Shown: piece after piece, positions 11,548-16,560 of the stretch
Layout of the letters: every line of letters begins with the position of its first letter
How positions within the stretch are numbered: the stretch's first letter is position 1
From: Cephaloticoccus sp.
GTDB lineage: Bacteria; Verrucomicrobiota; Verrucomicrobiia; Opitutales; Opitutaceae
NCBI GenBank assembly: GCA_030833445.1
Contig: JAURHD010000001.1
Coordinates: 62,001 to 126,000, forward strand
Reading direction: 5' to 3'
Length of the DNA stretch: 64,000 bases
Position numbers and translations under genes: made by a program
Notes under the pieces: model-generated
What the model was told of the DNA's origin: nothing
Seen by the model: the letters and a program-made list of their open reading frames with translations, nothing else
The model's database searches: none

Positions 11548-12009
11548 ATGCCATCGAAACCCATCCCCGGATCATCGGGCGAAGTGCTGACCGAGTTGCC
11601 TTCCGCGTATCAGCCGCATCTTTCCACCGGTCTTTTGCACCTCCCGCGGTTCATCGCGAAGATCCGTTACGTGCAACGGCACGGATCGCTGCCTGCGAGC
11701 TATGCCAAGAACTACAAACGCGGCATGGACCGTTTCCTATGTCAGCATCTGGGCGTTGAACCCGCCGCGGTGGAGCAAATCGTGCAGACCGCGGCCAATG
11801 ACGCGGAAATGGATGCCCGTTTACTGGAACTGTTCCCCTCCGACCTGCAGGCGGCCAAGTGGAATCGCAACTATGTGCAGAAGGGGATGACCGTAGCGGG
11901 TCGTGAGTTTCTACTCGAAGCGTTAACCGCCATGGGGTGCGCTGATCGGGCCGGTGAAATTATCAGCGTGGTGGATCTGATCGAGTTTGATGAGCGGCGC
12001 ATCGAGTAA
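11548..12009 (+). CDS. DUF5069-family protein
   Basis: A 153-residue soluble protein with the pattern LPRFIAKIRYVQRHGSLPASYAKNYKRGMDRFLCQHLGV, which I recognise as DUF5069, a small family of unknown function frequent in Verrucomicrobiota. Typical features are the Leu-Pro-Arg-x-x-x-K-I-R start, the invariant Gly-x-Leu-Pro turn, and a Trp-Asn pair late in the protein. No signal peptide or membrane segment is visible. A second, more diverged member lies at 29786-30232 on the other strand. It stands alone between gltB and the histone-like gene, with which it is convergent. No function can be given. Confidence 0.7.
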   Translation: MPSKPIPGSSGEVLTELPSAYQPHLSTGLLHLPRFIAKIRYVQRHGSLPASYAKNYKRGMDRFLCQHLGVEPAAVEQIVQTAANDAEMDARLLELFPSDLQAAKWNRNYVQKGMTVAGREFLLEALTAMGCADRAGEIISVVDLIEFDERRIE

Positions 12010-12082: not shown

Positions 12083-12181
12083 TTACTTCTTCTTCGCTGC
12101 CGGCTTCTTCTTAGCTGCAACCTTTTTCTTGGCTGCGGGCTTCTTAGCTGCGGTCTTTTTCTTAGCTGCTTTTTTTGCCAT
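12083..12181 (-). CDS. histone H1-like AAKK-repeat micro-protein (32 aa)
   Basis: An ATG at 12181 opens 32 codons ending in TAA at 12083-12085. Reading the minus strand gives MAKKAAKKKTAAKK, then PAAKKKVAAKKK, then PAAKKK: only Met, Ala, Lys, Pro, Thr and Val. This is the tandem (P/V)AAKKK composition of histone H1 C-terminal tails and of bacterial Hc1/AlgP-like DNA-compacting proteins. The predicted net charge is very high, with about half the residues Lys. It has its own terminator 25 bases downstream and an upstream AT-rich region of about 219 bases, so it is a stand-alone expressed gene rather than chance. A role as nucleoid- or RNA-binding polycation is inferred from composition. Confidence 0.8.
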   Translation of the reverse strand: MAKKAAKKKTAAKKPAAKKKVAAKKKPAAKKK

Positions 12182-12400: not shown

Positions 12401-13462
12401 TCAGCGCTGATTTATTTGCGCAACCACGTCGCGCAACGACGTGAGGTTTTGCTGCACGAGTGCGCCCATTGATTCACAACGCAGGTAGTCATCGCGGTGA
12501 AAATGTTCGGCGAGTGCCGTGCGCAACGCATGCACTTTCTCAATCGGCGCAATCGGATCGACGCACATCTCTTCGAGCAACGCACCCAAACGCACTCGCG
12601 CCAATTCCGCGCGCTGCACCATGAGGGTTTGCTCCTCGCGTTGGTATTGCAGCGCGGTTTGCGGATGCAGATGCTTGTTACAATAGGCTACCAGAGGCGC
12701 GTTTTCCTTGAAGAACTGCGGCAGATAGAAATTTTTGCGACTGTTGTAGGACTGTTGGTCGAAATCCATCGCGCGAATGCGCACTTGGGCGGCTTCAAAG
12801 TCCGGCGTGATCACAAAAACGAAGTTGTAGGACCGCATATCCCCCAGCAGTCGCACAAAACAACGCTCATTGAACTTCACGAGCTCCTTGGCCACGCGGA
12901 CCGGCCTCAATTCTGGGTATTGCAGCCATCGATCGATGAAAATATCCCCCGGGATACCCGCGATATGCTCTTCAATGAGCGTATTGCCACTGGTGAGGTA
13001 GTTCAGACGGTTGGGTGAGAGCAGATGCTCAAGTTCCAAGCCGTAAACCCGGGAGGCATCGGCCCGTTTCACGTAGAAATAGTCCTGGTTGTCGTTGTAG
13101 GCGTTGACTACCCGGACCCGAAACGGAGTCGAGTTGCCGAAACTGCAGTAATCGACGCGGTCCACGTAGAGATGCTGCACAATACTGTAGTCCCCATCGA
13201 CCTTGAGCAGCGCGTAGATACGTTTCAGACCTTCATAGAGGTCACCCATCTCGTCTGAACGGTAGATAACGGTGTCCCACAAGGTGGGTTTGCCGTCCCG
13301 ATCGACCAAGGGAATGACTTCTTGAAAATCGCGCAGCCGATCATAGGTCACGGGCAGCTGACGTTCGCGTTTATAGCGCAACAGATAACCGCGCAAACCG
13401 GGGTTAATCGGTATGCTGGGTTTACGCGGAGTGACCAACGGGGTCTCTTCGACCTCATCCAT
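12401..13462 (-). CDS. uncharacterised protein with kinase-fold-like motifs
   Basis: I do not recognise the family. The 353-residue protein (from ATG at 13462; a TTG at 13501 would add 13 residues) contains a run of features that resemble the protein-kinase/APH fold in the right order: FYVKRA (beta-3 lysine-like), LIEEHIAGIPGDIFI (hinge-like strand, as in EEYIPG of APH enzymes), LLGDMRSYNFVFV (D-x4-N, as in the catalytic loop HRDLKPEN) and, 20 residues after that Asn, AMDFDQQSY (DFG-like metal motif). The C-terminal 100 residues are helical and charged. No signal peptide is seen. It is 50 bases downstream of a Gfo/Idh gene on the same strand. Kinase activity is inference only; a degenerate or unrelated fold is possible. 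Confidence 0.6.
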   Translation of the reverse strand: MDEVEETPLVTPRKPSIPINPGLRGYLLRYKRERQLPVTYDRLRDFQEVIPLVDRDGKPTLWDTVIYRSDEMGDLYEGLKRIYALLKVDGDYSIVQHLYVDRVDYCSFGNSTPFRVRVVNAYNDNQDYFYVKRADASRVYGLELEHLLSPNRLNYLTSGNTLIEEHIAGIPGDIFIDRWLQYPELRPVRVAKELVKFNERCFVRLLGDMRSYNFVFVITPDFEAAQVRIRAMDFDQQSYNSRKNFYLPQFFKENAPLVAYCNKHLHPQTALQYQREEQTLMVQRAELARVRLGALLEEMCVDPIAPIEKVHALRTALAEHFHRDDYLRCESMGALVQQNLTSLRDVVAQINQR

Positions 13463-13513: not shown

Positions 13514-14704
13514 TCAGGCACCGCCTTGATCAAACCAACGCACCAAAGCCGGCTTGAGGGCGGGAACCTGCTGCACCTTGCCGCCATCACGCAACGAGTC
13601 GGTCGCCGCACAGCCCGCCGCAATACTTTCGCGCGCGGCAATGGGGGAAGTGTCGGTCGCTCCGCCGCGACGCACGTAACGCAGGAATTCCGCCAGGATC
13701 TTGGGGTCGGCGCCGCCATGGGTGCCTTTCTCCAGCGGTATGTTGTAGGTGCGATTGCCCTTCGCGTTGTAGTTGGCGCGCTTGTTCCAAAGTTTGAGAT
13801 GGGTGCCGGGTTCGCCATTGCCGAAGTTTTCCAATCGACCCTCCGTGCCGATGACGGTGTAGTTGCGCCAGTAGTCGGGAGTGTAATGACACTGCGCATA
13901 GGTCGCAAAGACTCCGTTGTTCAGCTTCATCTGCATCGAACTGAGGTCTTCGACATCAATGCGGTGATTGAGTCCACGCAAAGTAGTGGGCGGATACTCA
14001 TCAAATTTGAGCTTTGAGATGTTAATCGGTCGCGGTCCTTTGGTCGCGGGCATTCTTCCCGGCAAATCCCCATACACCGTGAGTCCACCGAGCGCACTGA
14101 CGGTCCGGGAATAGCCGCCACAGAGCCAATGGATCACATCGATATCGTGCGCTGCCTTCTGTAGCAGCAGTCCGTTGGTGTAACGGCGCTCCGCATGCCA
14201 GTCGCGGTAATAAAAATCCCCGCCATGCCCGACAAAGTGCCGGCACCAGCACGCCTTCACCTCGCCGATGACACCGGAGTCAATCAACGCCTTCATCTTA
14301 CGGACAAAGGCCATGTGCCGCATATTATGGCCGACATAGAGGCGCGCACGGTGCTGTTTGGCCGTGGTCAGAATGCGATCACAGGCCGCGGTGGTCAGGG
14401 CCATGGGTTTTTCCAAATAGATGGCAAATCCGCGCTCCAGGGCCGCAACGGCCTGCGTTTCGTGCAGAAAATCCGGCGTGCCGATGATGACGGCATCGAG
14501 CGTTTGGGCCAAAAGCTCCTCCACTTGGTGCGTGGTGAAGATATCCGCCCCAAACTCCGTGCGGTTGCGGGCAAGGGTGCCGGGATTGATATCACAACAG
14601 GCCACGATTCGGGCACCCTTGCCGGGTTTGTGGGACAGCCGCGCGAGCAAGCCGCCGCGGCCACCGGAACCGATGACACCAATTTGAAGATCGTTATTTT
14701 TCAT
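13514..14704 (-). CDS. Gfo/Idh/MocA-family oxidoreductase
   Basis: A 396-residue NAD(P)-dependent sugar or cyclitol oxidoreductase. The N-terminal Rossmann domain shows IGVIGSGGRGG and, at the end of the second strand, ACCDINPG. The EKPMALT motif (catalytic Lys) is present, followed by the alpha/beta substrate domain with HDIDVIHWL (conserved Asp and His). The ATG at 14704 was chosen because the longer reading would run into the AraC gene; it starts 23 bases after that gene's stop. No Tat signal is seen, unlike many planctomycete/verrucomicrobial paralogues. Grouping with an AraC regulator and a PhyH dioxygenase suggests a small inducible catabolic unit; the substrate is unknown. Confidence 0.9.
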   Translation of the reverse strand: MKNNDLQIGVIGSGGRGGLLARLSHKPGKGARIVACCDINPGTLARNRTEFGADIFTTHQVEELLAQTLDAVIIGTPDFLHETQAVAALERGFAIYLEKPMALTTAACDRILTTAKQHRARLYVGHNMRHMAFVRKMKALIDSGVIGEVKACWCRHFVGHGGDFYYRDWHAERRYTNGLLLQKAAHDIDVIHWLCGGYSRTVSALGGLTVYGDLPGRMPATKGPRPINISKLKFDEYPPTTLRGLNHRIDVEDLSSMQMKLNNGVFATYAQCHYTPDYWRNYTVIGTEGRLENFGNGEPGTHLKLWNKRANYNAKGNRTYNIPLEKGTHGGADPKILAEFLRYVRRGGATDTSPIAARESIAAGCAATDSLRDGGKVQQVPALKPALVRWFDQGGA

Positions 14705-14726
14705 AAGAGACAAATGCCCCGAAGTA

Positions 14727-15575
14727 TCAATTGGCGGCGGGTCGGTGCTGCCGGCGATAGTCCAAGGGTCGTAATCCGCGGGTATGCGCGGCAAACGCCG
14801 CATAAAAAGGAGCCACCGACGAAAAGCCGCTCTCCATTGCAACGTCGAGCACCTTCATGTCCGAAGTGATAAGTAATCGTTGCGCATGAGAGACCCGCAG
14901 CCGGGTCAAATACTCCCAAACACTCGAGCCGCACTGTTTCTTGAATACCCGCATCAGGTATTTCGCGTGCAACCCCGCATGATCAGCAATGGCCTGCACC
15001 GTCAGCGGATCCCGATAATGGCGCGCGATGAACCGGGTGATATTCGCAATCTGTGCGACCCCTTCGTTCACCCCGGTATCCTTTCGTTTGGCTATTCGCG
15101 GCGTGACCAAAGCCAGCCGATGAAAGCGGGCCTCCATTTCTAGTAACATGACACGCCGCTGGGCGGGATCACTGCTCGCGGCATCCGCCAGCCAACGTTC
15201 CAACTGAGGTCGATCTTCCGGCGCGGGAGCCGAACTCACAATTTCACCCTCCAATAACCGTTCGCCCAAGGCATGCGGCAGTTGCCACTGTAAAAACCAC
15301 GCCAAGGGCAGGGTAATCCAAATTCCTTCACCTAGTATACCCGGCGAAACGGTTTGATGAGGAATTCCGCCCCACAAGGCGGTGAATCGACCCGCTTCAA
15401 CTGGCACGATGGTTCCCCCGTGCAAATAGGAGAACCCGCCCCGAAACAGATAGTTTACCTCGATATCGGGATGGGTATGCGGCCGCGCCATCATCCCGGT
15501 ATTCCGCTGATGCCATACCCGAAACCCGAGTTCATCTTCATGACGGGTTTCAACGGGGTGGGATGGGCGAGGCAT
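14727..15575 (-). CDS. AraC-family transcriptional regulator
   Basis: A 282-residue regulator. The N-terminal cupin-like sensor domain carries PHTHPDIEVNYLFRG and GIPHQT. The C-terminal DNA-binding domain has two helix-turn-helix units (LTVQAIADHAGLHAKYLMRVFKKQ and SVWEYLTRLRVSHAQRLL, then VLDVAMESGFSSVAPFYAAF). It starts with ATG at 15575 and is divergent from the dioxygenase gene, sharing a 73-base promoter region with it. It most likely responds to a sugar-like ligand and controls the dioxygenase and the downstream Gfo/Idh gene; target assignment rests on position only. Confidence 0.92.
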   Translation of the reverse strand: MPRPSHPVETRHEDELGFRVWHQRNTGMMARPHTHPDIEVNYLFRGGFSYLHGGTIVPVEAGRFTALWGGIPHQTVSPGILGEGIWITLPLAWFLQWQLPHALGERLLEGEIVSSAPAPEDRPQLERWLADAASSDPAQRRVMLLEMEARFHRLALVTPRIAKRKDTGVNEGVAQIANITRFIARHYRDPLTVQAIADHAGLHAKYLMRVFKKQCGSSVWEYLTRLRVSHAQRLLITSDMKVLDVAMESGFSSVAPFYAAFAAHTRGLRPLDYRRQHRPAAN

Positions 15576-15648
15576 GGTTACTATTAAAGAGATGTTTCGG
15601 ATAAAACGGAAAGAAAGTTTTGAATAGTTCTGCTAGAATGGCGGGGTC

Positions 15649-16560
15649 ATGGAACAACGCTTTCACAATCACCTCCCCCCACCACCCATCGTTAACGTCC
15701 CCGAGGCTCGGGTGCCGACCGACTTGGACGAATATCTTTTCGATCTGAACGGCTTCGTTATCCTTCGCGGTGTCCTTTCCAAGGAAGAAGTCGCCGACGC
15801 CAACGCCCGCATAGACACCATTCCGCGTTCACTGCCCCGCAACGGTTGGCACGGCTGGGTGCAACGCGAGGACCATCCCGAACATCGTGGTATCAGCTAT
15901 CAGCAGGTATATGAACTGGGTGGCGCGCTGGAGCGCATGATCGATCACCCCAACTACATCAACTACGTGATGCGCTTCATCGGCGGACACGATTGTTTCG
16001 ATTACCACCATGGCCCGGCCTTCATTGATGAGAATTTCTACACCATCCGCGGACCCGGCGAAGCGATTCCGCTGCACGCCGGTGGTCACGACCGCGCCAA
16101 GCGCATGTCATTTGGTTACCACAACGGCCGTTTTCAATGTAACCAGATCAACGTGCTGATGGCCTTCACCGATATCGGTCCCGGAGACGGCGCCACCATG
16201 GTCATTCCCGGTTCCCACAAGTCCAACATCGCCCATCCGGAGTTCAGCAAGCCCAAGCGTTACGACGAATGGCAGGATGGCGGCGGCGGATCGGTCGATG
16301 GCATCGCGGGAGCAATTGAAGTCCACATGAAGGCCGGTGACGCGATCGTCTTCGTCGATGCCACCTGCCATGGATCCGCCAAACGCGTGAATCCCGGCGA
16401 ACGTAAAATCGCGGTTTATCGCTACGGCTCATCTTGGAACCGCACGCGTTGGGGTTATCACGCCTCACCCGAACTCCTGGCCCGCGCCAATCCGTTCGCG
16501 CGGAAAATCATCAATCCGCAGGAATACGTGCGTCCTCCCGGCACGGACGCTCGCTGGTAA
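15649..16560 (+). CDS. phytanoyl-CoA dioxygenase (PhyH)-family Fe(II)/2-oxoglutarate oxygenase
   Basis: A 303-residue non-haem iron oxygenase. After a DEYLFDLNGFVILRGVLSKEE start typical of PhyH proteins, the double-stranded beta-helix core contains LHAGGHDR (a candidate metal His, without the usual neighbouring HxD), LMAFTDIGPGDGATMVIPGSHKSN (the conserved strand with GS-H) and TCHGSAKRVNPGERKIAVYRYG (distal His and 2-oxoglutarate Arg). The canonical HxD pair is therefore not obvious. Such proteins in Verrucomicrobiota hydroxylate diverse small molecules rather than phytanoyl-CoA. Divergent from the AraC gene and followed by a hairpin terminator. Confidence 0.88.
   Translation: MEQRFHNHLPPPPIVNVPEARVPTDLDEYLFDLNGFVILRGVLSKEEVADANARIDTIPRSLPRNGWHGWVQREDHPEHRGISYQQVYELGGALERMIDHPNYINYVMRFIGGHDCFDYHHGPAFIDENFYTIRGPGEAIPLHAGGHDRAKRMSFGYHNGRFQCNQINVLMAFTDIGPGDGATMVIPGSHKSNIAHPEFSKPKRYDEWQDGGGGSVDGIAGAIEVHMKAGDAIVFVDATCHGSAKRVNPGERKIAVYRYGSSWNRTRWGYHASPELLARANPFARKIINPQEYVRPPGTDARW

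Follow-up and report, generated by a model that had tools for sequence, protein, structure and literature searches.

A predicted kinase of a new family in Verrucomicrobiota with a modelled fold resembling that of PI3K, PI4K and PIKK enzymes

The gene described here, from a 64,000-nucleotide stretch of Cephaloticoccus sp. DNA (the window), probably encodes a phosphotransferase that uses ATP and represents a new family, its kinase fold being of the PI3K/PI4K/PIKK type. In support of this reading are the fold models, the PI3K/PI4K/PIKK structures with which VIA-align aligns them and a catalytic set that is constant in all 135 aligned sequences; the fold is that of a predicted model and the activity is what we infer from it and from the conserved residues. 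A kinase-like protein had been suggested in an earlier note on this DNA, and the fold model together with the invariant catalytic residues upholds that suggestion. The family is almost always single-copy, has a full catalytic set and lacks annotation, and as over half of the order's sampled genomes retain it, Verrucomicrobiota may hold a regulatory or metabolic step that has yet to be studied.

The open reading frame lies at 12404-13462 of the window on the minus strand (353 codons, 353 amino acids) with its stop codon at 12401-12403, so that the span 12401-13462 given in the earlier note was exact, and the window gene is the sole match of the predicted kinase in its source genome, a 2.9 Mb draft. 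The motifs that had been read there in kinase order are found where they were placed: FYVKRA starts at residue 129 (Lys132), EEHIAGIPGD at 164, GDMRSYN at 207 (Asp208, Asn213) and AMDFD at 231 (Asp233, Asp235). The parts of the gene, in window coordinates, are these:

12404..13462, minus strand: predicted kinase, 353 amino acids, with its ATG at 13462 (open reading frame, homologues, model)
13172..13402, minus strand: predicted N-terminal extension of the N-lobe, residues 21-97, with helix 21-29, strands 48-53 and 59-66 and helix 69-88 (model secondary structure)
13121..13141, minus strand: P-loop-like turn, residues 108-114, F108 G109 N110 S111 x P113 F114, of which N110 and P113 are invariant (alignment, model)
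13049..13069, minus strand: candidate ATP-binding Lys132 in K-x-x-D-x-x-R (K132, D135, R138, all three invariant)
13028..13036, minus strand: candidate glutamates of helix C, E143 and E145, each invariant (alignment, model)
12944..12973, minus strand: putative hinge region EEHIAGIPGD, residues 164-173 (alignment, model)
12824..12844, minus strand: predicted catalytic loop GDMRSYN, residues 207-213, with D208 and N213 invariant (alignment, model)
12770..12823, minus strand: extended beta hairpin, residues 214-231, in which P220, D221, R228 and R230 are invariant
12755..12766, minus strand: DFDQ motif at the DFG position, residues 233-236, invariant in the alignment
12404..12742, minus strand: C-lobe helical region, residues 241-353 (model)

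The AlphaFold (AF2) model of the full-length protein is a confident two-lobe kinase fold (pLDDT 92.1, pTM 0.89), and residues 92-353 modelled alone gave a pLDDT of 91.8 and a pTM of 0.88; what is predicted is the two-lobe fold of the protein-kinase-like (PKL) superfamily. As in this model, the N-lobe of PI3K opens with a helix, followed by a hairpin of two strands and a second helix, ahead of a five-stranded sheet. In the N-terminal half of our model, the listed elements of the extension are accompanied by a short helix at 40-43, before strand 48-53, and by another short helix after helix 69-88. These are followed by strands 98-106, 114-120 and 126-133 (Lys132), helix 136-148 (E143, E145) and strands 155-158 and 161-165, after which come the hinge, helices 172-179 and 187-204, the catalytic loop 207-213, the hairpin 214-231, the DFD motif and seven helices. 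A P-loop-like role for residues 108-114 would fit their modelled position between strands 98-106 and 114-120, and a hinge role for residues 164-173 would fit their place after strand 161-165. The D-x4-N spacing reported for the catalytic loop is that of Asp208 and Asn213, and the distance of 20 residues to DFD holds from Asn213 to Asp233. A longer inserted beta hairpin, proposed from that distance, does appear in the predicted structure, formed by strands 214-219 and 226-231: Asp208 and Asp233 are 25 residues apart, compared with 18 between the loop Asp and the DFG Asp in Vps34, 19 in mTOR and 22 between the corresponding positions of the HipA-type entry 7vkb.

Structure prediction followed by a fold search, which the earlier note had put forward as a check, gave a high-confidence two-lobe kinase topology that matched kinases in the PDB. 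VIA-align re-aligns the top 1000 matches of Foldseek, and among the best 50 listed in each run all belonged to the PI3K/PI4K/PIKK group, both when the full-length model was queried (best Z 13.4) and when residues 92-353 were (best Z 12.2, 220/262 residues), with PI4KIIIbeta, mTOR and Vps34 in the top rows. That the closest solved folds in VIA-align come from this group is, like the breadth of gene retention described below, a point beyond the earlier note. The best row for the whole model was PI4KIIIbeta 8q6g (Z 13.4, rmsd 4.0, 258 residues, approximately 10% identity), while the best PI4KIIIbeta row for the domain alone was 6gl3 (Z 10.0, 212 residues); the rise of Z with the whole model suggests that the fold includes the N-terminal part, two different entries being compared here. 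With Vps34 2x6j, the change from domain alone to whole model (Z 12.2 to 13.0) was a tie. These Z values are to be read with VIA-align's own caveat that a Z of 14 is within reach of mostly helical models even where nothing matches clearly. Foldseek by itself placed PI3K beside or below Ser/Thr and Tyr kinases with modest TM-scores. For the whole model, its best 50 were headed by Vps34 (E 3.9e-5) and a second Vps34 entry, followed by FGFR and other kinases; when only the domain was searched, Ser/Thr kinases of eukaryotes led the best 50, with Vps34 35th but with the highest query TM-score of these rows (0.49). Since Foldseek mixes in Ser/Thr and Tyr kinases, placement with the PI3K type depends mainly on a single aligner. 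A fold search against viral models returned mostly kinases from large viruses.

Conservation among homologues supports the phosphotransferase reading. A protein sequence came from 144 of 145 loci (the last spans only 100 bases), and the alignment comprised 135 distinct sequences, among them that of the window; these are mostly the best-scoring loci plus chosen distant ones, with the weaker matches of genomes G205, G253 and G258 lying outside. Pairwise identity in this set runs from 42%, with a median of 65%, and 60 of the 353 positions are invariant. K132, E143, E145, D208, N213, D233, F234 and D235 are identical in 135/135 sequences, which answers in the affirmative the second check proposed earlier, namely whether the Lys, Asp, Asn and DFD Asp are constant in homologues. 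The joint invariance of the five kinase sites K132, E143, D208, N213 and D233 has a hypergeometric P of 1.2e-4, and given this value and the eight constant residues we take the kinase motif to be beyond chance. Mean conservation reached 0.97 for the catalytic loop and 0.95 for helix C, its highest values, and fell to its lowest over the C-terminal region (0.56) and over residues 1-97 (0.57).

In the available text of PMC1821047, the key residues of the PKL superfamily are K72, E91, D166, N171 and D184 (PKA numbering). Their counterparts here, assigned by order and secondary structure, would be K132, E143 or E145, D208, N213 and D233, all of them invariant. At residue 206, the position of the HxD His, Leu is present in 133/135 sequences and Ile in 2/135. 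The same text describes loss of this His (H164 in PKA numbering) in other kinase-fold families, and because Vps34, mTOR and other families lack it too, PKL membership is still open to a protein with no HxD His. In the mechanism that we envisage, Lys132 and one of E143 and E145 would keep the phosphates of ATP in place, and the GDMRSYN loop would contribute D208 to orient the hydroxyl of the substrate or remove its proton. Metal ions would be bound by N213 and by D233 of DFD, and R210 would stand in for the His of the PI3K 'DRH' loop.

The likeness to the PI3K/PI4K/PIKK group extends, in the predicted fold, across nearly the whole protein, and it includes a GD-x4-N loop with no HxD His and a D-F pair after a hairpin. 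Further motif likenesses, chosen after the fold result and carrying no statistic, are found at what we take to be the ATP Lys and DFG of Vps34 and mTOR: (i) counted from the ATP Lys, Vps34 has D at +3 and R at +6, matched here by the invariant D135 and R138; (ii) mTOR carries E and R at these two positions (K-x-x-E-x-x-R); and (iii) mTOR has a Pro 18 residues before the Lys, compared with 19 residues for the invariant P113 of the predicted kinase. The protein differs from the group in that DRHxxN is replaced by DMRxxN and DFG by DFD in all 135 sequences, and in being a single 353-aa protein that lacks that group's large extra domains. The use of DFD for DFG and of Arg210 for the DRH His could mean altered chemistry, and it speaks to this extent for a kinase fold put to other ends, be it AMP transfer, glutamylation or a non-phosphorylating scaffold. 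SelO reportedly transfers AMP by means of a kinase fold. Polyglutamylation by SidJ is another precedent, as far as the available text of its source goes. We nevertheless think such chemistry unlikely, as the K, E, D, N and D sites are intact in 135/135 sequences.

If the protein is a phosphotransferase, the VIA-align top rows (PI4KIIIbeta, mTOR, Vps34) would also agree with a lipid kinase that, like PI3K/PI4K, acts on inositol or other membrane lipids. This narrower reading is very unlikely. Inositol-1-phosphate synthase (PF01658) is missing from the source genome and occurs in only 7/161 carriers of the predicted kinase, compared with 5/112 non-carriers of the order, which makes phosphatidylinositol an unlikely substrate; non-inositol lipids or imported inositol are possible. 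Absence of the synthase from 154/161 carriers is also a further difference from the PI3K group.

A point against the phosphotransferase claim is that a sequence-level link to any kinase family was not found, whether with PF00454, with a profile against the PDB or with hhalign. PF00454 was not matched by the window protein at E<=10 nor by 65 members of the family at E<=1; the same domain gave no match above cut-off in 115 genomes of the phylum, with sub-threshold matches in 9 of them. Searched against PDB sequences, the 65-member profile returned no kinase; its one match, to a zinc-finger protein (E 0.23), was treated as chance. The window protein matched no family of Pfam, NCBIfam or PADLOC at E<=10, and its single PHROGs match, phrog_8807 (E 0.053), is to a family of unknown function. 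The 65 members hit 21 Pfam and 9 NCBIfam families, each through 1-6 members with best E values of 0.009-0.23, and we treat these matches, which share no common theme, as chance. The statement in the earlier note that no named family fits holds in this respect for Pfam, NCBIfam, PHROGs and PADLOC, where only weak, chance-level matches were seen. Judged by these sequence searches, the predicted kinase is a family new to all four libraries, one that is not to be filed under PF00454 or HipA, and none of the titles and abstract openings listed in literature searches describes it.

Kinase folds also occur in the HipA/CtkA Ser/Thr kinases, in CotH and in APH/choline kinase. Against profiles of HipA, CotH (PF08757) and APH (PF01636) taken from the order, hhalign gave probabilities of 0.4%, 0.2% and 0.2%, respectively. 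This negative has limited weight because the control pairs HipA-APH (0.2%) and CotH-APH (0.0%) were missed too, HipA-CotH scoring 81%. CotH-domain matches (L193-L212) are abundant in some genomes of the order (13 in G018 and 9 in G021), and many of them lie in open frames of more than 1000 aa, up to about 2500.

Some likeness to HipA/CtkA (PF07804) is apparent: D-x4-N is shared, as DMHLKN in some HipA members, DFG is missing, and the Lys-to-Glu spacing of 13 in HipA (K184-E197) equals that of K132 and E145. A HipA-type toxin kinase, or another defence or mobile-element gene, is nonetheless extremely unlikely. Pfam HipA_C was not matched, and the hhalign match with HipA covers 19 columns outside the catalytic motifs of the predicted kinase. 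A HipA-like fold was absent among the best 50 listed of each Foldseek and VIA-align run, although lower ranks could hold one, as they could folds of other families. The gene is present in 161/273 genomes of the order, compared with 14/52 for HipA_C, which the source genome lacks. There was no PADLOC match, phage and plasmid collections held no relative of the predicted kinase, and of 108 viral-contig stretches matching a peptide pattern none encodes one. A widely shared neighbour was also lacking across 114 loci, where small, divergent HipB-like regulators could have escaped because clustering used E<=1e-10; a cluster judged by eye to be HTH-like occurs at 4/114 loci, approximately 4.4 kb from the kinase gene.

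The neighbourhood comparison covered the window and 113 other loci, 33 of the 114 being distant, and the 40 largest clusters were inspected. None of these represents a neighbour widely shared by near and distant relatives: besides the kinase, six include any distant member, and the most shared of these, of the ABC-transporter ATPase type, reaches 10/114 loci and 4/33 distant ones, the highest distant count of the six. A conserved operon as a clue to function was set aside on these counts. Upstream, at 13517-16557 of the window, lie genes for a GFO/IDH/MocA oxidoreductase (same strand, ending 51 bases upstream of the kinase gene), an AraC-type regulator and a PhyH-type dioxygenase, whose clusters are present at 22, 14 and 17 of the 114 loci, respectively, none of them distant. 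A convergent DUF5069 gene at 11548-12009 (plus strand) has counterparts nearby in 42/114 loci, 0/33 distant. Downstream, at 12083-12181 (minus strand), is a 32-aa peptide (MAKKAAKKK...) composed after its Met of Lys, Ala, Pro, Thr and Val and resembling a histone H1 tail. Versions of 31-113 aa flank the kinase gene at 6/113 loci (101 of which had at least 1500 bases downstream), and as all six are near relatives we do not regard the peptide as part of the system. It is followed by a terminator-like stem at 12058-12033, one of 6 such sites in 1.8 kb where 2.6 were expected; the sole sigma-70-like promoter found sits downstream of the kinase gene and corresponds to the chance rate.

These data bear on the substrate. 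A small-molecule kinase, with the same fold but a soluble substrate (a sugar, nucleoside, amino acid or cofactor), is a tentative possibility within the phosphotransferase claim. The available text of PMC1821047 lists lipids, sugars and amino acids among the substrates of kinase-fold families, and the APH match, weak and non-significant as it is (0.2%), aligns GD-x4-N and the next Asp, after the hairpin, in register. Against it, the nearest folds among the best 50 listed by VIA-align are lipid and protein kinases, and pathway neighbours are not conserved, the best cluster with distant members being the one at 10/114 and 4/33 loci. We favor, at not quite an even chance, a stand-alone protein kinase that would act on Ser or Thr of a common intracellular partner, itself being presumably intracellular. 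Our reasoning for this is that no operon at the 114 loci ties the gene to a metabolic pathway and that its retention is fairly wide. The best-studied bacterial kinases with such a fold are toxins (HipA) or injected effectors. A bolder version, which we hold to be doubtful, is that the protein is a native PIKK counterpart, neither effector nor toxin, that shares ancestry with eukaryotic PI3K/PIKK and regulates one conserved intracellular protein target. If true, a regulatory gene would have been kept across much of a verrucomicrobial class, and shared ancestry behind the fold likeness would supply a data point on the origin of the eukaryotic PI3K/PIKK fold.

Within the order the gene was found in 161/273 sampled genomes, or 122/183 good ones (61/183 lack it), and across the phylum in 82/387. 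With the 65-member profile at E<=1, 85/387 genomes of the phylum matched, and because the three extra ones reach only E 0.1-0.4 the matches break off sharply below the strong relatives. Phyla beyond Verrucomicrobiota were covered through a tblastn scan (one genome per GTDB species) that confirmed relatives at 224 places; the 80 of these examined are all, by record title, Opitutaceae, Opitutia/Opitutae, Opitutus, Cephaloticoccus, Lacunisphaera, Didemnitutus or Verrucomicrobia/Verrucomicrobiia. Two named isolates carry close versions, Cephaloticoccus capnophilus CV41 (79% identical) and C. primus CAG34 (78%). In a second class of the phylum the gene is present in 5/148 genomes (G433, G447, G469, G542, G599), from one family and two genera, which may reflect an old transfer. 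That the gene is not universal, even among small genomes of the order, counts against the phosphotransferase claim. Its retention by some lineages whose assemblies measure 1.2-1.5 Mb counts in favor of that claim, as does its nearly constant single copy. Small carriers include G079, G100 and G171 (1.3-1.4 Mb, completeness 97-98%), whereas the gene is absent from G006, G025, G026, G029 and G034 (0.9-1.1 Mb, 92-95%); whether a small genome keeps it depends on the lineage. Within its own family, G232 and G248 also lack it.

A quick tree of 65 members holds coarse family labels together with 7 changes, the minimum possible being 6, which fits mainly vertical inheritance. Under midpoint rooting, members of the order do not fall on one side of a branch, and transfer between orders is possible because five of them group with families f29, f33 and f59 (support 94). 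Copy number is nearly always one, two or three matches being found in the order and phylum scans only in G028, G253 and G259. Gene fusion was considered as a functional clue and dropped: long open frames in seven genomes and at locus L124 carry extra stretches that look by eye like chance frames, not domains. Some profile matches were flagged with 1-2 stop codons, none of which appeared at the same places in the phylum scan, and these are taken as read-through beyond the gene end.
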